NCBI GenBank assembly: GCA_030145195.1
Contig: JAQYVY010000015.1
Span: 1 to 64,000 of the forward strand
Length of the DNA: 64,000 nt
From: Desulfuromonadales bacterium
GTDB lineage: Bacteria; Desulfobacterota; Desulfuromonadia; Desulfuromonadales; BM103
Reading direction: 5' to 3'
The notes under the pieces are model-generated. The model saw only the letters and a program-made list of their open reading frames with translations. It had not been told where the DNA came from and did not search any database. Position 1 is the first letter of the stretch. Every line of letters begins with the position of its first letter. The position numbers and the translations under genes were made by a program. Shown here piece by piece: positions 2,556-26,426 of this stretch.

Positions 2556-4913
2556 TCAAGAATTCAACCGTCCCCAGGCGCGTTTAATCGCCGCAACAAA
2601 AGCACCATCTTTCAGCTCCGCATCGTCTTCGCCGTAGTACCCTCGATAGTACTTGTCGCCGTAATAGTTGTAGGAGCCATAATACTTGAAGCCACGGCCC
2701 GATTTGTCATTGAAAATAATCCCGGTAATTTTGGCGTTAACCGCACGCAGGGTTTCAACCATCTGCAGGGCGGCCTTTTCGGGAACCCGACAGGGCTCTA
2801 ACACCACCAGGTTAATGTCGACCAAAGGCGCAATAATCTGCGCATCGGTGACGGGCAGAACGGGAGTGGCATCGATCAGCACGTAATCGTAACGTTGCCG
2901 GGCAATCTCCAGAAACTTCTTGAAACGATTGGAGTCGAGGATTTCCGACGGATTGGGTGGCACGGTACCAGCAGAGAGGAAGTCGAGATTAGTCCCTTTG
3001 ATATTGCGGTGCAATGCGTCCTGGTTATTGTCCAGCAAAAGATTGACCAATCCGGGCTCACTCTTCTGATCAAACATCTGATACAGCGAGGGCCGCCGCA
3101 AATCACAGCCAACCAGCAACACCTTGGCCCCGGTCTGGGCCATAACCACCGCCAGATTGCCAGAGACTGTTGACTTGCCTTCATTCGGCAGCGAGCTGGT
3201 GATCATAATTAGCTTATGCTTTTCTTTGCCGGTCGCAAAATTGAGATTGGTGCGCAAGGCACGAAACGCCTCCACCACCGGCGATTTTGGCGATAACGTT
3301 GTCACCAGGCGCTTGCCTGGCAGCTTGGCATCTTCATCGGCAAACGGAATCCGGGGGATGATGCCAAAGACATTGAGGTTAAGTTTCTCCCGGATATCTT
3401 CGGTTGTTTTGAGGGTTTGATCCATGTAATCCAGCAGGAATGCCATGCCGACACCGAGCATGATCCCGAGGATCAGACCGAGAGCGAGATTTTTGCGTTT
3501 GTTCGGAGCCACCGGGCGGCGTGGCGTCAGGGCCGGGTCGATCACCGAAGCGTCGCTGATGGTCGAAGCCTGGGCAATCTGCGCTTCCTGTTGCTTCTGT
3601 AAGAGGAAGGTGTAGAGCCCCGAGTTGACCTCGTTGACCCGCAGCCGCTTGGCAAGTTCGAGTTCCGCTTCCGGAATGTCTTCGAGCTGACCTTCGAAAC
3701 CAGAGATGGTTTGAGCGATATCCCGTTCGCGTAAGAGCAGTTCCTGCCTGACGCTCTTGTAGTTGGAGAGCATCGCCTCCTGCACCTGCTGAATCTGAGC
3801 CTGGATTTCAACCACCTGAGGATGGGCCCGGGTGTAATCAACCAGCAGACCATTCTTTTGTGCTTCCAATTCTGCCAGTTGATTGGCCGCTTCAGCAATT
3901 TGCGGGAAATCTTCAATCGTTGGTGGGCTAAAGGTCTGGTTCTGCTTGACGGCTTGACGAAGAGAACTGATAGCGAAATCGACCCGTTGCCGCTTGAGGT
4001 TCAATTCAGCCTGCTCCTGCTCTAAGGAGACCATCTTCTCAACCAGTGAACTGCCCTCCGGGCCGAGAGTGATTAAACCGGTTTGTACTTTATATTCCTG
4101 CAAGCGCTGTTCGGAAAAATCGAGCTTTGACCTGACTCCATCCAGTTGCTGGGAAATAAAATCGACCGCCTTGCCCGCTTCCTGGGTGCGAGAGGAGACA
4201 TTTTTGGAGAGGTAGCCATCAATCAACAGGTTGACGACATCACGGGCCTTATCCGGATCGGTGTCACGAAAGCTGACCCGAATGACATTGGTCATCTTGC
4301 CAACTTCGCCAACGCTGAGTTTATCCATAAAACTCTCGACCAGCTCATCGGTCGAAACCTGTTCAAATTCGAGGAATTGACCGGCTTGGCCGTTATCGAT
4401 ATCAACCAGAATCTGACCGCCGTTAAAATCACAGAGTTTATGATTGTGCGCCTCACAGAGCACCGTCCCGGATAGATCGCTCACCCGAAAAGTTTCTGGG
4501 CCGGTCAGTTCAATGAGCAAACCTGGTAGCTTGTTCTGGACCGAAAACTCGCGGACGGTAAAATCCAGACCTTTGCTGAACGCACCGATCTGCCAGTGCA
4601 GATTCAGTTGTTTGATGGCGGTTTCAGCGAGACTTCGAGAACGCAGCTTTTCTATTTCGGTCTCGACCGACCCATCGCCACCAACATCAATCCCTTCGAG
4701 CAAACCCTGCTGCTTTTTACCACCGACTTCCAGAGTGGCCGCAGCTTCATAGATCGGCTGCATCAACAGGGTCCGCAGTGAAACCACACAGAACACCACA
4801 AGCATAATAAACAAAACGATTTTCCAACGCCGAAACACGACGTTGAGGTAATCGATGAGGTGGACTTCTTTTTCAACCCCGACCAGCGGGTAAAATGTTT
4901 TTTGATCGTTCAT
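2556..4913 (-). CDS. wzc: Wzc-like chain-length determinant / BY tyrosine kinase
   Basis: Inner-membrane co-polymerase fused to a bacterial tyrosine kinase; controls assembly and export of exopolysaccharide with the Wza-type porin. An N-terminal Wzz domain with a TM segment at about residues 32-52 (IVLFIMLVVFCVVSL) precedes a long periplasmic coiled-coil/GNVR region. A second TM follows the proline motif (LTPRRPVAPNKRK, LALGLILGIMLGVGMAFLL). The kinase has Walker A (SSLPNEGKST, ~573-582), Walker A' (VLLVGCDLRRPS) and Walker B (YVLIDATPV, ~680). The C-terminus carries the autophosphorylated tyrosine cluster (KYYGSYNYYGDKYYRGYYG, ~741-761). At 785 aa it is a full-length proteobacterial fusion rather than a split CapA/CapB pair. 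The PHP phosphatase gene follows. Confidence 0.93.
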   Translation of the reverse strand: MNDQKTFYPLVGVEKEVHLIDYLNVVFRRWKIVLFIMLVVFCVVSLRTLLMQPIYEAAATLEVGGKKQQGLLEGIDVGGDGSVETEIEKLRSRSLAETAIKQLNLHWQIGAFSKGLDFTVREFSVQNKLPGLLIELTGPETFRVSDLSGTVLCEAHNHKLCDFNGGQILVDIDNGQAGQFLEFEQVSTDELVESFMDKLSVGEVGKMTNVIRVSFRDTDPDKARDVVNLLIDGYLSKNVSSRTQEAGKAVDFISQQLDGVRSKLDFSEQRLQEYKVQTGLITLGPEGSSLVEKMVSLEQEQAELNLKRQRVDFAISSLRQAVKQNQTFSPPTIEDFPQIAEAANQLAELEAQKNGLLVDYTRAHPQVVEIQAQIQQVQEAMLSNYKSVRQELLLRERDIAQTISGFEGQLEDIPEAELELAKRLRVNEVNSGLYTFLLQKQQEAQIAQASTISDASVIDPALTPRRPVAPNKRKNLALGLILGIMLGVGMAFLLDYMDQTLKTTEDIREKLNLNVFGIIPRIPFADEDAKLPGKRLVTTLSPKSPVVEAFRALRTNLNFATGKEKHKLIMITSSLPNEGKSTVSGNLAVVMAQTGAKVLLVGCDLRRPSLYQMFDQKSEPGLVNLLLDNNQDALHRNIKGTNLDFLSAGTVPPNPSEILDSNRFKKFLEIARQRYDYVLIDATPVLPVTDAQIIAPLVDINLVVLEPCRVPEKAALQMVETLRAVNAKITGIIFNDKSGRGFKYYGSYNYYGDKYYRGYYGEDDAELKDGAFVAAIKRAWGRLNS

Positions 4914-5422: not shown

Positions 5423-6493
5423 TCAGTCATTACTATCCAACAGGTACTTCATCTGCACAAAGGGCTGCAAGGTCGCGCCAATCGCCTGCAACGACGGTAA
5501 CAGCTCCTGAAGTTCTTCATTCCAACCGCCCATCCTGGTCTTCGGCACATAGACGATATCACCATCCATCAACGGCATCGGCAGGGCATAACCGTTGGCC
5601 ATCATGCCGAGATCAACGACCAGCAACTGGCCGCGGGTCGGGGTCAAAGAACGAATGATCCGAATATGTTCGTCGTCGTAGGGTTTGTCACCCAGACCGG
5701 CAGAGCTGAGAGCCTGAACCAGGTTGAGGCGACCATTATCCATGTTCACCGCCCCCGGCTTTTTCACCTGACCGAAAACAAACACCTGCTGGTCTTCGTT
5801 GCCTGGGACATAGATGGCATCACCGGAACGCAGCTGCACATTTTGTTTGGCGTCATTGTAATTCAGCAGTTGATAGATATCGACCGGCAAAACCCGTTCC
5901 GCACGGACCAGGCGAGCACCGCGCAGGTTAGCGCGATCATCTAAGCCACTGCCAAGCGCCAGACCATGCAACAGCGAAGTAGGACGATCCAGGTAGTACA
6001 GACCCGGTTGGTTAAATTTACCGAGAAGGTAGATCGGCTGCGACTTAAACTCAAGAATTTCGACCGAGACAACCGGTTTCTTGATGTAACTGAGAAAGAC
6101 TTCGATCAGCTTGATCTGAATTTCCTCGACGGTCATGCCAGCGACTTCAATGCCGCCGACCAATGGCAAGAGAATTTTGCCGCTGGTGTAGACACGAAAG
6201 CTGCCCAGAGTGTCACCCTGATCGTCTCGACGATATCGATCATCCCGGTTATTGCTTTCGACCAGGCCCGGCACCGAGATTGACAACACATCACCTGCGC
6301 CGACGCGATATTCGGTGACGATCTCATCAGGAGCACGTGCCGCGACTGAGACATCCTCCATTTCAACGATGGCTGCTGTTTCATCGTTGATATCCACCAC
6401 TGTTCCCGGAGCATACATTTCGTAGCGAGAGCAGCCGCCCATAAAAAAAGCCAAGCCAACCACGACCATAAGAAAGAGAGCACTTCGCTTCAT
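5423..6493 (-). CDS. wza: Wza-like polysaccharide export lipoprotein
   Basis: Outer-membrane exopolysaccharide export channel. Start chosen at the ATG giving MKRSALFLMVVVGLAFFMGGC because AAGGA lies 9 nt before it; an upstream ATG exists but would bury the signal peptide. The lipobox FMGGC sets Cys21 as the acylated residue. The mature protein has a Poly_export domain (YRVGAGDVLSISVPGL .. GSFRVYTSGKILLPLVGGIE), then SLBB-type beta-grasp repeats (PIYLLGKFNQPGLYYLD and QVFVFGQVKKPGAVNMDNG). 356 aa, close to the usual Wza length. It is the first gene after a good promoter at 6714-6743 and is followed by wzc and the phosphatase, all leftward. Confidence 0.92.
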   Translation of the reverse strand: MKRSALFLMVVVGLAFFMGGCSRYEMYAPGTVVDINDETAAIVEMEDVSVAARAPDEIVTEYRVGAGDVLSISVPGLVESNNRDDRYRRDDQGDTLGSFRVYTSGKILLPLVGGIEVAGMTVEEIQIKLIEVFLSYIKKPVVSVEILEFKSQPIYLLGKFNQPGLYYLDRPTSLLHGLALGSGLDDRANLRGARLVRAERVLPVDIYQLLNYNDAKQNVQLRSGDAIYVPGNEDQQVFVFGQVKKPGAVNMDNGRLNLVQALSSAGLGDKPYDDEHIRIIRSLTPTRGQLLVVDLGMMANGYALPMPLMDGDIVYVPKTRMGGWNEELQELLPSLQAIGATLQPFVQMKYLLDSND

Positions 6494-6713
6494 CGACACC
6501 ATCCTTATCAACTCCATAGCCCTTGCCACTCTGTACCTAAACACTGGTCAAAACAGCACTGACACGCCCTGACAACAACCCGTATTTCACAACAACTAGC
6601 GTCACGCAAATCACCCGAGCCACCCATAAAAGCAGCACAAAATACTTAGCCCAGGCAGCATCTTAAACGTATAGATGGTATTAACTCATGATTCTAGTAG
6701 CTTAGTTTACGTT

Positions 6714-6807: not shown

Positions 6808-8124
6808 TTACAACGCCCAATAAACCATCCCGGCGGCCTCAATGGCGCAACGATCCAATTGCGCTTTGACATCAATCACAACCCCACGGCCAGAATCACT
6901 GGCGCAAAGACGAGCAAAATCATCCGGGGTAAGAGCTTTGAACGCGGCATGCGGGACCGCGTAGACGATGGCGTCATAGGGTGCACCCGCATGACAATCA
7001 ATCAACTCCAGGCCATATTCGGTGCGGGCTTCCTCGGCCTTGGCCATGGGATCGTGGACCTGTGGAACAACCCCGTAACTGCTCAGTTCTTCAATAATAT
7101 CAATAATTCTGGTATTACGGATGTCAGGGACATCCTCCTTAAAGGTCAACCCCAGGATTAGCACTCGACTGCCCTTGATCGGCTTGTCGGCTTCAATCAT
7201 CAACTTGACCGTTTTTTCGGCAATGTATTTGCCCATGCCATCGTTGATGCGACGCCCGGAGAGAATAACCTGGGGATGATAGCCGATACTTTCGGCCTTG
7301 TAGGTCAGGTAATAGGGGTCGATGCCAATGCAGTGCCCGCCGACCAGGCCCGGCGTAAACCGGAGGAAGTTCCATTTGGTTCCCGCAGCTTCGAGCACCT
7401 CGCTGGTCGGGATATTCATCTTGTCAAAAATCAAGGCCAGTTCGTTCATCAAAGCGATATTGAGATCACGCTGTGTGTTCTCGATCACCTTGGCCGCTTC
7501 AGCCACCTTGATACTGGACGCACGATAAACTCCAGCGGTAACAACCATTTCGTAGACGGCGGCAACGACCTCAAGGGTCGGTTGATCCTGACCGCTGACA
7601 ACCTTGGTGATTTTGTCAACGGTGTGGACTTTATCGCCCGGGTTGATCCGCTCAGGGGAATAGCCGACCGTGAAATCAACCCCGCACTTCAGACCTGACT
7701 GGGCTTCGAGGATTGGAACACAGAACTCCTCGGTGACACCAGGGTAAACGGTCGATTCATAGACGACAACACTGCCGGGAGAAAGGTTGCGACCGATGGT
7801 TTCAGAAGAAGCCCGTAGCGGGTAAAGATCAGGCTTCTTGTTGTCGGTCAAGGGGGTAGGCACTGTGACAATAATGAACGAAGCCTCTTTGAGGCGTTTC
7901 GCATCGGTGGTGTAATCGATACGAGTCGCCGCCAGATCGGCCTCATTCAATTCTCCGGTGCTATCGTAGCCACGCCTCAGTTCCGCGATTTTGCTTTCAC
8001 TGATATCGAAACCAATGACCGGCACTTGCCGTCCAAACGCAGCAGCCAAGGGCAAACCAACATAACCGAGTCCAACCACCGCGATCATCGACCGCCCCTG
8101 TTTGATATCTTCTATCGACAACAT
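6808..8124 (-). CDS. UDP-N-acetyl-hexosamine 6-dehydrogenase (nucleotide sugar dehydrogenase, TviB/WbpA type)
   Basis: Cytosolic NAD-dependent four-electron oxidation of a UDP-HexNAc (or UDP-Glc) to the uronic acid, a precursor for surface polysaccharide. Rossmann motif MIAVVGLGYVGLPLAAAFG lies near the N-terminus, the catalytic Cys in GLVGGHCIGIDPYYL, and C-terminal LGLTFKEDVPDIRNTRI. The NWNFLRFTPGLVGGHCIG context and 438-aa length favour the UDP-HexNAc subgroup over classical UDP-glucose dehydrogenase; the exact substrate cannot be decided from sequence alone. AAGGA lies 7 nt before the ATG. It sits just upstream of wza with its own intergenic region, and no glycosyltransferase adjoins it. 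Confidence 0.88.
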   Translation of the reverse strand: MLSIEDIKQGRSMIAVVGLGYVGLPLAAAFGRQVPVIGFDISESKIAELRRGYDSTGELNEADLAATRIDYTTDAKRLKEASFIIVTVPTPLTDNKKPDLYPLRASSETIGRNLSPGSVVVYESTVYPGVTEEFCVPILEAQSGLKCGVDFTVGYSPERINPGDKVHTVDKITKVVSGQDQPTLEVVAAVYEMVVTAGVYRASSIKVAEAAKVIENTQRDLNIALMNELALIFDKMNIPTSEVLEAAGTKWNFLRFTPGLVGGHCIGIDPYYLTYKAESIGYHPQVILSGRRINDGMGKYIAEKTVKLMIEADKPIKGSRVLILGLTFKEDVPDIRNTRIIDIIEELSSYGVVPQVHDPMAKAEEARTEYGLELIDCHAGAPYDAIVYAVPHAAFKALTPDDFARLCASDSGRGVVIDVKAQLDRCAIEAAGMVYWAL

Positions 8125-8206
8125 TCGAGATCCTTATGATAGTAAAAAAATCTTTCTTAGCGACATGATAAATCTTTTAACTATTACCAGAAAATGCCAA
8201 TAAATG

Positions 8207-9087
8207 GAATGGGGTTAAGGCCAAAGGCTTACCTCTCGCAGAGACGCAGAGACAGAAGAGAGATCAAAGGCAAAAACTTAAAAGCTTGGGTCTTTTGGTA
8301 AAACCTTTTAGACCTTGATTGGTTTCTCTGGTTTCTCTGCTGTCTCCGCGTGCTCAAGTGAATGTAATGAACGGGCGTGAGGATGGTTTCAAGGTCAAAG
8401 GCTTGCCTCTCGCAGAGACGGCAGAGAAGTCAAAGGCAAAAACTGGAAAACTCGCTTCTTTTAGTAAAACCTTTAGATCTTGTTTGGTTTCTCTGCTGTC
8501 TCTGCGGGCTTGAGTGAATGCAATGAACGGGCGAGACAATGGTTTTAAGGTCAAGGACTTGCCTCTCGCAGAGACGCAGAGACGGCAGAGAAGTCAAAGG
8601 CAAAAACTGGAAAACTTGCTTCTTTTAGTAAAACCTTTAGATCTTGTTTGGTTTCTCTGCTGTCTCTGCGGGCTCAAGTGAATGCAATGAACGGGCGAGA
8701 TAATGGTTTTAAGGTCAAGGACTTGCCTCTCGCAGAGACGCAGTGACAGCTGAGTGGTCTAAGGCAAAAACTGGAAAGCTCGCTTCTTTTAGTAAAACCT
8801 TTAGATCTTGTTTGGTTTCTCTGCTGTCTCTGCGGGCTTGAGTGAATGCAATGAACGGGCGAGATAATGGTTTTCAGGTCAAGGACTTGCCTCTCGCAGA
8901 GACGCAGAGACGGCAGAGAAGTCAAAGGCAAAAACTGGAAAACTTGCTTCTTTTAGTAAAACCTTTAGATCTTGTTTGGTTTCTCTGCTGTCTCTGCGGG
9001 CTTGAGTGAATGCAATGAACGGGCGAGATAATGGTTTTCAGGTCAAGGACTTGCCTCTCGCAGAGACGCAGAGACGGCAGAGAGATC
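8207..9087. repeat. 164-bp tandem repeat array (about 5.4 copies)
   Basis: The landmark ACGGGCG recurs at 8371, 8527, 8691, 8855 and 9019. Spacings are 156, 164, 164 and 164 bp; the 156-bp unit lacks one 8-bp GCAGAGAC. Each unit holds GGTCAAGGACTTGCCTCTCG, CAGAGACGCAGAGACGGCAG, AAAGGCAAAAACTGGAAAAC, TAGTAAAACCTTTAGATCTT and TTTCTCTGCTGTCTCTGCGG. The third and later units differ at only a few bases, so amplification is recent. Frames through it are repeat-coded and have no ribosome sites. Another copy is at 1265-1490. Confidence 0.95.
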
Positions 9088-9104
9088 TATGTAAAAGCGT
9101 GTAT

Positions 9105-9149
9105 GAATTGTCGGGACATAATAGCTTCCCCATTGTGTCCCAGGAATTC
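9105..9149. repeat. REP-like hairpin (third copy)
   Basis: GAATTGTCGGGACATAAT, loop, ATTGTGTCCCAGGAATTC: same 45-bp unit as at 1148-1264, including the 3' flank CATCTTCCATTT shared with the copy at 1220-1264. It abuts the right end of the 164-bp array. Confidence 0.8.
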
Positions 9150-9186
9150 ATCTTCCATTTAAGACCGATTAACTACGGTTGCCATC

Positions 9187-9216
9187 AAAAAAACGGCCCG
9201 CCGAATTCGGCGGGCC
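9187..9216 (-). terminator. Strong terminator ending the riboswitch transcription unit
   Basis: Perfect 22-bp palindrome at 9195-9216 (11-bp arms, centred on GAATTC), followed on the minus strand by a run of seven T (9187-9193). Confidence 0.85.
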
Positions 9217-9584
9217 TAAACCTGCATCACATTAAATGACATATTGGGGTAAGATAGTACCCTGTGCCCTGCCAAAAGATTTCAAGACATCAAAACCTCC
9301 TCAGACCCCGCTTTGAGCCCCCTCCAACCTCTTCACGGCATCAATACTTCATTGCATTAAAATTACAGGATAGTTTTCTTGTTGGTTTGTAGGTAAAACT
9401 ACGACCCCCCCTTGCATAACATTACAGGTTTAACTAAAAAACAAAGCAGTGAACTCGACACGACTCCGCCAACAAACGGTCACAGTGACCTCACCAAAAA
9501 TGTAGTAATGGATTTGCCCCCCCCCCCTCTTTCTGAGGATGTAAAACCTGAACCAACAATCTACGCAATACACGGTATAAACAC
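9217..9584 (-). ncRNA. Transcribed region downstream of the c-di-GMP riboswitch; no gene recognised
   Basis: This 368-nt interval lies between the riboswitch terminator and the next terminator, so it should be transcribed when the switch is ON. No minus-strand frame with a start and ribosome site exceeds about 25 codons. A good AGGAGG at 9297-9302 is followed by ATG TCT TGA, a two-codon frame. It has runs of 11 G and 7 G (minus strand). It could be a c-di-GMP-controlled non-coding RNA or a decayed or frameshifted small gene; I cannot tell which. Confidence 0.45.
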
Positions 9585-9626
9585 AAAAAAGCCGGGCACT
9601 CAGGAGATGTTTCCTGGCAACCCGGC
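9585..9626 (-). terminator. Riboswitch expression-platform terminator
   Basis: Minus strand: GCCGGG (9621-9626) pairs with CCCGGC (9591-9596), with an inner CAGGA/TCCTG stem, followed by six T (9585-9590). The left arm and inner stem reuse bases of the aptamer, including the 3' strand of P1, so aptamer folding and terminator are mutually exclusive. Ligand binding should therefore relieve termination (ON switch, inferred). Confidence 0.75.
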
Positions 9627-9686
9627 TATCTTCAAGAAAAAGACCCGTGGCTTTCCGCCCCTCCCTCACGAGAGGTTTGGCATCTC
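9604..9686 (-). ncRNA. Cyclic-di-GMP-I (GEMM-I) riboswitch aptamer
   Basis: Read on the minus strand: P1 is GAGATG (9681-9686) with CATCTC (9604-9609). Then CCAAACC, and a six-pair hairpin CCTCTC-GTGA-GGGAGG capped by a GNRA tetraloop. Then GGAAAGCCACGGGTCT, and AGATAGCCGGGTTGCC as the 3' core. This order and spacing match the GEMM-I consensus (CAAACC, GNRA hairpin, AAAGCC, CGGGTCT .. AGCCGGGTTGCC). The base just before CAAACC is C instead of the usual G, and its expected partner before AAAGCC is G instead of C, a compensatory change. The residue equivalent to Vc2 G20 remains G, which favours c-di-GMP over cGAMP. Confidence 0.85.
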
Positions 9687-9718
9687 TACAAGAATTTCAA
9701 GACTTAATTGGTGCGCGC

Positions 9719-9747
9719 ACATTAGCCAGCTCAAAGGATTTTGTCAA
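9719..9747 (-). promoter_or_regulatory. Promoter of the c-di-GMP riboswitch unit
   Basis: Minus strand TTGACA (9742-9747), 17-bp spacer, TAATGT (9719-9724). Predicted start about 9712, some 26 nt before P1 of the aptamer. Confidence 0.75.
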
Positions 9748-9779
9748 GAGCAAAAACATAAAAGTCTGAGTCAAACCAC

Positions 9780-10216
9780 TAAATTGGCCACAGATAAAAT
9801 CTGATAAAGGCTGATTTAAAGATTGAAGACCGAGTTTTTTGGTTTTCCTGCTTGGTCTGTCGGTTTTACCATTGAACATAGCTCTTAAATGTTTAGCCTT
9901 TTAATTTTGCCTGATCAGCGTAAATCAGCTTTGATCTGTGGCTAATTGCTTTTGTTTTTCTCCGTGCCTTGGCGTCTTTGTGGCTAACCTTTTTTTGCCC
10001 TGTTTTGTTTGATCAGCGTAAATCAGCTTTGATCAGCGTCCAATTGCTTTTGCCTTTCTCTGCGTCTCTGCGTCTCTGCGTCTCTGCGTCTTTGCGCCTT
10101 TGCGCCTTTGCGTTAATATGGTTCATCGTTTTGCTTGATCTGTGTAAATCAGATTTTATCTGTGGCCGATTGCTTTTAGTTAGCTTTTCTCTGCGCCTCT
10201 GCGCCTCTGCGTTAAA
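9780..10216. repeat. Mosaic of dispersed repeats downstream of the peptide permease
   Basis: Several copies of the TTTATC/GATCAGCG..CAGCTTTGATCTGTGG family (9783-9815, 9908-9955, 10009-10050, 10134-10172) alternate with 8-bp GCGTCTCT/GCGTCTTT/GCGCCTTT arrays (10056-10113, 10190-10214). The plus-strand frame 9969-10220 simply translates these arrays (LRLC repeats) and is not a gene. Confidence 0.85.
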
Positions 10217-10223
10217 GTAGTCT

Positions 10224-11198
10224 TTATCCTTTTCGAATACGTGGGTCGGCCATAGCGTAGCTGATATCAGCCAACAAGTTGCCGACCAGAGTTAGAGCAG
10301 CGCCAATGACGAGAATACCCATAATCAACGGGTAATCGCGCATCATGACCCCATCGTAAAAGAGCTTACCCATACCGGGGATGGCAAAGATTGTTTCGAA
10401 GATCACGCTACCACCAATCAACCCCGGCACCGAGAGACCCAGGATGGTGATCAGTGGCAAAAGAGCGTTGCGGAGGGCGTGTTTGTATATAACTGTTCGC
10501 TCCGACAAACCTTTGGCACGAGCAGTCAGAATGTAGTCTTGGCGAATCACTTCGAGCATATTGGAACGCATATAACGAGAAAAACCAGCTAAGCCACCGA
10601 AGGCGGAGACGAACACCGGCAAGATCATATGCCGGACGTAATCCCATATTTGCCCGGGCCAGCTGTAATATTCATGGCCAATATCCTTGAGACCCGCGAT
10701 CGGAAAGAGCCCCAAACGAACCCCGAAATAATCCATCAGCAGCAACGCCAGCCAGAATGACGGCATGGCAAAACCGATAAAAACAAAGATCGTGGTGCCG
10801 CGATCAAACGGGGAATTGCGCTTAACTGCTGAGAGAATTCCGATGGGGACAGCCACCAGCAGAATGACCAGAATGGAGAGGACATTGATAATAATAGTAA
10901 TGGGCAGACGTTCAGCGATCTTATCCATGACCGGCCGATGGTCCTGGGCGAAGGACTCACCAAAATCGAGCCGTACCAGACGTCCCAGCCATTTGCCATA
11001 CTGGACGTAAAGCGGCTTATCGAGATCGTAACGCTCCATCAACCGATTGCGCATTTCGGCGCTCGCTTTCGGGTTGAGGTCGGTCTGCATATCAGTCGGC
11101 TCACCCGGTGCCAGATGGATCACAACAAAACTGATCAGAGTAATTCCAATCAACAGTGGGATCATCATGGCGAGCCGTTTTAAAAGATAAGTCAGCAT
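10224..11198 (-). CDS. Peptide/nickel ABC transporter permease (DppB/OppB type)
   Basis: Inner-membrane permease of a binding-protein-dependent importer for oligopeptides or similar solutes. Start taken at [20 protein letters not shown] with GAGAG 7 nt upstream. It shows the typical N-terminal [26 protein letters not shown], and the EAA loop ([20 protein letters not shown]). It ends with [11 protein letters not shown], a normal family C-terminus, so the gene is intact (324 aa). The upstream neighbour is a family-5 binding lipoprotein. The expected second permease and two ATPases do not follow: about 2 kb of repeats do. Confidence 0.9.
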
Positions 11199-26236: not shown

Positions 26237-26426
26237 GACAACCTCTGGAACGCGCGACAGATTTTCTTGTGTGCAGGCCAACTGAAAGATATATTACCTG
26301 AAGAATCGGGTAGTGGTGAGCAAGCCCGTACTTGAACGGGAAGCCTAAAACTCCCCTCTAAGGTATTCTCCGTATCACTCGGTCCTCTCTAAAAGGAATG
26401 AGCTGTCGGTGTTTTGGAGGTTGTTG
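26237..26426 (+). ncRNA. ssrS: 6S RNA
   Basis: About 190 nt, the expected size. The terminal stem pairs ACAACCTC (26238-26245) with GAGGTTGT (26417-26424). The most diagnostic stretch, GGTGAGCAAGCCCGTACTTG then AACGGGAAGCCTAAAACTCC (26314-26355), matches the E. coli 6S core GGTGAGCATGCTCGGTCC..GAAGCCTTAAAACTG. The middle forms an internal bubble that mimics an open promoter and sequesters the housekeeping RNA polymerase holoenzyme in slow growth. The E. coli partner gene ygfA is not adjacent. Confidence 0.88.

Follow-up and report, generated by a model that had tools for sequence, protein, structure and literature searches.

The minus strand between positions 9747 and 9187 of the window (the whole stretch of Desulfuromonadales DNA that was analysed, 64,000 nucleotides) probably holds a small, complete gene whose product is a regulatory non-coding RNA, with synthesis switched by c-di-GMP or a close cyclic dinucleotide. 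An aptamer, a mutually exclusive terminator, a conserved RNA domain, covariation within this domain, a gene-less state and the nature of the neighbouring genes were established by computation, and the non-coding-RNA reading of the unit is largely supported. More tentatively, the domain may represent a new family of c-di-GMP-gated structured regulatory RNA in one Desulfuromonadales-type family, which occurs either as a 3' UTR or stand-alone (the latter once the genes had been lost, or before they were gained) and could serve polysaccharide control without a protein sensor.

Promoter, aptamer and terminators of the unit

Read on the minus strand from 9747 to 9187, a promoter is followed by a GEMM-I aptamer, terminator 1, ~370 nt without a credible gene and terminator 2. 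The following features were assigned:

9742..9747 (-): -35 hexamer TTGACA, a perfect match; identical hexamer in 9/9 related units
9719..9724 (-): TAATGT, -10 hexamer after a 17-nt spacing; 3/6 matches to TATAAT
9612..9690 (-): GEMM-I aptamer, best Rfam family c-di-GMP-I-GGC (RF03167), 63.5 bits
9585..9627 (-): terminator 1, the expression platform; its stem is 9627-9590, followed by a U tract to 9585
9419..9584 (-): spacer, poorly conserved, with an 11-G run at 9527-9517; relatives have two exported-protein genes or a short ORF here
9193..9418 (-): conserved structured RNA domain (model R1 positions 1-238), 56.5 bits
9187..9216 (-): terminator 2, 9-bp all-GC stem 9216-9195 plus T tract; homologous in 9/9 units

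The original prediction, made from the letters of the window, had named a consensus promoter. Its -35 half is perfect, and TTGACA is kept upstream in all nine related units, in eight of them before an aptamer. For the window alone the term is overstated, because the -10 hexamer matches at only three of six positions and the promoter was not listed by a simple promoter scanner, which called one other site (2.0 expected).

The predicted aptamer was confirmed using covariance models, with scores above the gathering score both for RF03167 (63.5 vs 59 bits, E 1.1e-12, 9690-9612) and for the parent family RF01051 (60.8 vs 35 bits). In the RF03167 alignment, the window has an A at one consensus G, a pairless position after P1b, as does the ordinary class. 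By the usual naming, the c-di-GMP-I-GGC variant has signature residues of its own, and the aptamer is filed only as GEMM-I. With the usual numbering, the J1/2 ligand residue is a G, as is the rule in c-di-GMP binders. In G. sulfurreducens, cGAMP is reported as the ligand of 12 of the 17 GEMM-I switches (PMC8835794), and cGAMP is a possible ligand of the window aptamer as well.

The last 16 nt of the aptamer (9627-9612) are shared with the stem of terminator 1, so that the ligand-bound aptamer and the terminator are predicted to be mutually exclusive. On this structural prediction the proposed expression-platform terminator stands. The strong second terminator stands also, on account of its stem and its conservation; by count, terminators are not significant in this region (two terminator-like sites called by the scanner in 8000-10400 vs 2.7 in shuffles).

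The lack of a credible gene behind the switch was upheld by the ORF listing of the window, in which no ORF of more than 17 aa with a ribosome site lies between terminators 1 and 2. After the switch, the two longest frames have 47 aa (GTG start) and 31 aa (TTG start), and both lack a ribosome site. AGGAGG lies upstream of a 17-aa TTG frame, the ATG just before this frame opening two codons only, and a 79-aa GTG frame begins inside the aptamer. To our knowledge, nearly all c-di-GMP riboswitches control a protein gene behind them, and the original prediction had given control of the adjacent gene as the rule for GEMM-I. This rule was found to apply to all six other GEMM-I aptamers of the genome, each of which is followed by an ORF of at least 130 aa starting within about 250 nt; the window aptamer is thus the exception among seven.

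Distribution, conservation and fold of the 3' domain

The domain comprises the last ~230 nt of the window unit (9418-9193). Searching 58 genomes with the tail of the unit returned few matches. The first relative obtained was G009, from another genus of the family, with 82% identity over 56 bases at terminator 2. This locus adjoins a phosphomannomutase gene. It has the same aptamer and terminator 1, then a stretch of several hundred bases in which GGAGGGG motifs occur, and terminator 2. The phosphomannomutase gene was followed through 19 genomes, which led to G018 and G015 with aptamers before ugd-wza-type genes, as in the window; the units of G018, G015 and G009 share the window's architecture end to end. 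With the tail of G018, 136 genomes of the order were searched, and its last ~275 nt were detected in G015, G012, G002, G004, G014 and G019 at 72-82% identity; this search missed the window copy. Eight of the nine domain copies follow a GEMM-I aptamer, the ninth being that of G019, and the Rfam aptamer scored over threshold in seven of the eight other units. In G019 (L116, 3230-3340), the promoter, the same genes and a terminator-like hairpin are kept and the aptamer is gone, which amounts to a natural aptamer deletion.

For covariance model R1, only the seven clear copies were used, without the window and G009. R1 matched the window over all 238 positions (56.5 bits, E 1.8e-17; calibration was short for these models, and their E-values are rough) and G009 with 44 bits. 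Since terminators can score by themselves, a second model of this type, R2, was made without the terminator. R2 matched the window at 9233-9418 (40.3 bits, E 9.5e-8) and G009 (28 bits, E 7.6e-5), the next match having 16.8 bits. Strong R1 matches (at least 44 bits) were found in 9 of the 22 family genomes, one in each, and the next best match reached 22.3 bits; using stricter filters, the strong matches numbered 9 in 136 genomes of the order and 9 in 277 of the class. At E up to 1, R1 matched in 17 of the 22 family genomes, strongly in only 9, and R2 gave nothing above 17.4 bits on the 20 loci of the other R1 matches. A missing domain in some family genomes may reflect contig ends. Five weak matches of R1 and R2 (G004:C3, G012:C20, G014:C59, G019:C138 and G020:C424; 13-14.5 bits) all fall at about model positions 66-160, possibly representing one orthologous, unrelated locus.

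A pattern scan of 84,980 genomes gave 26 stretches, 7 with the domain according to R1 and 19 without. The seventh, a 5.3-kb contig labelled Shewanella MAG-BB-1 (L157), carries the domain with 260.6 bits, and no aptamer was found on it. It is 93.4% identical to G014 over 2,758 nt; owing to this near-identity it is probably misbinned and was not counted as a further holder. A known Rfam sRNA family was rejected as the identity of the domain, as none exceeded its gathering threshold; the best partial match was anti-hemB at the terminator end (21.5/21.7 vs 49.5 bits). No description of the domain RNA was found in searches of the open-access literature.

Sequence conservation was compared with the four-fold sites of a single gene, phosphomannomutase, and by this yardstick the domain is more conserved in all 21 genome pairs. 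Between clades, identity is 72-81% for the domain vs 40-50% for four-fold sites. In pairs of gene-less units, the values are 83.8% vs 67.1% (G018-G015) and 72.1% vs 45.5% (G018-G012). Between G018 and G015 the unit is a conserved island, with identities of 91.4% for aptamer plus terminator, 81.7% for the spacer and 83.0% for the domain, and with flanks that hardly align. No reading frame is conserved through the domain when the units are compared, and coding in the domain was rejected, as frames after the GGAGGGG/AUG array vary in length and register between units.

The main rival explanation assumes a role in cis plus leftover copies: the operon lost two exported-protein genes, the domain once served the mRNA in cis, and too little time has passed for the decay to be complete. 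We consider this unlikely, while several properties of the window copy agree with it. The copy is the second most divergent of nine (about 56-61% identity to the seven core copies), holds an 11-G and a 7-G run, and has lost one stem of the family fold. Together with G009 it forms a pair of divergent copies, at about 56-63% to the other seven and 48.9% to each other. Decay is at odds with conservation above the synonymous level in the gene-less pairs, and also with the intact aptamer, terminators and TTGACA hexamer of the window unit itself. The fold of the window domain, computed free of any alignment, bears on the same question. It contains the following stems:

9407..9410 (-): P1 5' strand GGGG, pairing with CCCC at 9249-9246, in the window's own minimum-energy fold
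9384..9406 (-): P2 hairpin (GGU-GUAG / CUAC-ACC), in the window's own minimum-energy fold
9365..9372 (-): P3 5' strand UAUCCUGU, pairing over 8 bp with ACAGGGUA at 9265-9258; equivalent stem in the other eight units
9258..9265 (-): P3 3' strand ACAGGGUA, in the window's own fold

The domain is more stable than expected, with z -3.1 in the window (0/200 shuffles as stable) and z -4.0 for the 3' part of G018. Covariation was determined twice. In the model-fitted alignment of all nine copies, which leans towards structure, both sides have changed in 23 of 58 pairs (shuffles 8.6, slid 2-6). In an unfitted MAFFT alignment of seven copies, the number is 10 of 58 (shuffles 4.7, slid 0-2). Outside the terminator, 16 family pairs recur in the window's minimum-energy fold (P3 6/13, P2 6/7, P1 4/4); P4 is lost (0/5 pairs), P7 is not formed and P3 is shortened. 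Among 1000 neutral derivatives of G018, changed by substitutions only to 60% identity, the mean was 1.1 such pairs and 16 were reached in two, a control that flatters the window because indels and realignment through the model were not part of it. This retention of P1, P2 and P3 argues against decay of the window copy. The G009 copy is closer to what decay would leave: P3 is kept, with 13/13 possible pairs, 9 of them in its own fold, and its number of possible pairs outside the terminator is not better than neutral, as 317 of 1000 controls have at least as many.

In 8 of the 9 domains the motif AUGNNAUG is over-represented (3-5 copies; reached by 0/300 shuffles). The window has a single copy, which is not significant (21/300 shuffles). 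GGAGGRG is also enriched in several domains. GGAGGGG motifs in several loops would suit a sponge for CsrA/RsmA, in which G-rich GGA sites titrate CsrA at high c-di-GMP. This explanation was judged extremely improbable: in the window's own genome, which is 99.95% complete, no CsrA (PF02599) match was found by a search that was positive in 3 of 14 control genomes. Moreover, ANGGA is not enriched in 8 of the 9 domains, G009 being the exception (1/300 shuffles).

Units with and without coding genes

In G002, G004, G014 and G019, the domain comes after two genes for exported proteins, A and B (274 and 405 aa in G014; no Pfam match). As these genes lie between switch and domain, the domain is a 3' UTR in the four genomes, which allows a role in cis (mRNA stability, termination). 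The other five units, namely those of G018, G015, G012, G009 and the window, are gene-less, and tblastn of A and B in them gave nothing better than E 1.8. In these, A and B were lost or never there, and the conserved RNA is what remains. Two options had been left by the original prediction: a c-di-GMP-gated non-coding RNA, or a gene that was lost or frameshifted. The former is now favoured by the domain in eight relatives, and to the latter corresponds, in part, the absence of A and B from five units.

The position of A and B in four genomes is what the leftover explanation would expect, and the spacer of G009 can be read in the same way. It contains just the 5' end of a gene for a transglutaminase-like exported protein, of the type found in G017, where a phosphomannomutase-linked GEMM-I aptamer precedes a transglutaminase-core ORF open for more than 1600 codons (L085, minus strand, from 4847), with an additional weak Ig-like match. 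Against it, gene-less units are found on both sides of the deepest split between the holders (G000 vs the rest). A tree of 19 phosphomannomutase proteins requires two changes, with gene loss and gain not told apart, and 77 of 500 shuffles of the labels with and without genes were at least as clustered. Since all holders of the domain belong to one family, the number of independent events is small, and MAG contigs often end nearby. The loss of a gene specific to the window was rejected as the sole explanation, because similarity of the tail to the exported-protein gene of G017 is weak and the 3' half is better accounted for by the domain model.

The original prediction had named a small ORF conserved in relatives as evidence that would speak against it, and such evidence was found in part. 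Between terminator 1 and the domain, G018, G015 and G012 have co-located ORFs of 33-39 aa with a ribosome site, and G009 has the 5' end mentioned above; the window has neither, and no frame is conserved in the domain. The unit could then be a gene for a short exported peptide of 33-39 aa behind a GGAGGGGG-type ribosome site, with the domain as its UTR, and several G018-G015 differences in the frame are indeed synonymous (few codons). We give this very little credence, since the ORF is absent from the window, the ORF of G009 is a different one, and the spacer is about as conserved between G018 and G015 as the domain, so that the frame is not singled out.

Two further kinds of ORF were observed around these loci. 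A gene of 355-360 aa starting with MPISPPVET or MPIAPPIET is found near the phosphomannomutase gene in L112, L113, L116, L117, L128 and L088; its copy in G009 has no Pfam match. ORFs starting with MARPLRIE occur near GEMM-I units in L090 (G051), L088 (G002) and L145 (G012), and we take them to resemble REP-associated transposases.

Genomic surroundings, proposed function and known systems

Downstream of the unit, Pfam searches assigned three genes of a polysaccharide locus in the window, given here as context:

6808..8124 (-): UDP-glucose/GDP-mannose dehydrogenase gene
5423..6544 (-): polysaccharide export gene (Poly_export/SLBB, Wza-like)
2556..4913 (-): Wzz/GNVR chain-length/tyrosine-kinase gene

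By the same searches, the downstream genes are a dehydrogenase and Poly_export in G018, Poly_export in G015, CpsB/CapC and a dehydrogenase in G012, CpsB/CapC in G002, and Poly_export behind an opposite-strand gene in G009. In G014 and G004, a PDDEXK_3 protein comes first, then phosphomannomutase and GDP-mannose dehydratase/epimerase, the polysaccharide or sugar-nucleotide genes being 1.3-2.8 kb from the unit. Such genes are thus near all eight copies with downstream sequence; the contig of G019 ends. Synteny suggested that the unit could be the leader of a ugd-wza operon. This was rejected, as terminator 2 ends the unit in 9/9 cases, a promoter-like TTGACATAATAACGTATAATTGTGTATAAA was seen by eye before wza in G015, and the opposite-strand gene intervenes in G009.

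Between the unit and the dehydrogenase gene, a five-fold array of 164-bp repeats was observed at 8208-9083. Each repeat carries TTCATTGCATT, an 11-nt complement of AATGCAATGAA in the RNA, and the RNA could conceivably act as an antisense to the repeats; 12 of 300 shuffled RNAs match likewise. Short CGCAGAGA/TCTCTGCG tandem repeats occur at 10057-10211, 8237-8255 and in other intergenic stretches of the window. Elsewhere in the window, a 6S/SsrS RNA was detected at 26239-26424 on the plus strand (54.1 bits, cut-off 46.4).

For the proposed regulatory RNA, we infer transcription, an ON direction of the switch, action in trans and a target. Transcription would start near 9712. At low ligand concentration, terminator 1 would capture the 3' strand of the aptamer and transcription would stop near 9585. 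An aptamer held by its ligand would block terminator 1, and read-through would yield an RNA of ~520 nt ending at terminator 2. In the last ~230 nt, P1 would enclose hairpin P2 and the long stem P3, which would present an internal loop region where G-rich and AUGNNAUG segments lie. These P3-enclosed loops may act in trans, either through pairing with an RNA or through capture of a protein, and neighbouring surface-polysaccharide or attachment genes are the putative targets. If this is true, second-messenger signalling reaches other genes via RNA alone, and a 3' UTR module can outlive, or precede, the coding genes of its operon, which would define an evolutionary path. The nine genomes are natural variants (with genes, without genes, one without aptamer), and the domain can therefore be tested at once.

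Like 3'-UTR-derived small RNAs, the domain is a conserved module of a 3' UTR, has a terminator of its own and could be released as a regulator. It differs from them in that it persists in units without coding genes, directly behind a riboswitch. From the usual GEMM-I members (RF01051, RF03167), the window switch differs in that it precedes a structured RNA and not a protein gene.

The merRNA of Bdellovibrio bacteriovorus is reported to be 445 nt long, to carry a c-di-GMP riboswitch but no conserved ORF, and to be conserved in Bdellovibrio alone; a storage role was proposed for it (PMC3627812). Compared by description only, the window unit likewise lacks a conserved ORF after its c-di-GMP riboswitch. 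Unlike merRNA as described there, it has a separate conserved 3' domain, an intervening expression-platform terminator and a 3' UTR form in relatives. An abundant RNA could likewise buffer or store c-di-GMP via the aptamer, its 3' domain merely stabilising it; the gross anatomy and similar size shared with merRNA (PMC3627812) and the very stable fold would suit such a sink. We regard a sink as improbable: it needs no expression-platform terminator, terminator 1 would remove the stabilising domain exactly at low ligand, and the domain also occurs with genes and, in G019, without an aptamer.

Rli55 of Listeria monocytogenes is described as a riboswitch-gated non-coding RNA of about 450 nt in full length, located beside the operon under its control, with a B12 switch of OFF direction, and it sequesters EutV via an ANTAR element (PMC8079631). 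The window switch is similarly predicted to end or permit transcription of a non-coding RNA. Of the features expected from an Rli55-like RNA, the excluding terminator is predicted here and a conserved non-coding domain was found by R1, R2, covariation and slow evolution. The window unit differs from Rli55 by its c-di-GMP-type aptamer, a predicted ON direction and an unrelated 3' domain. For competition of a terminator with the 3' strand of the aptamer, which terminator 1 of the window shares, the pilM ON-switch of Geobacter is the precedent, as described (PMC9262584). In the open-access literature searched, no description was found of the domain, of its double life as a 3' UTR and a stand-alone RNA, or of its setting among polysaccharide genes; the kind of RNA is already known from merRNA and Rli55.
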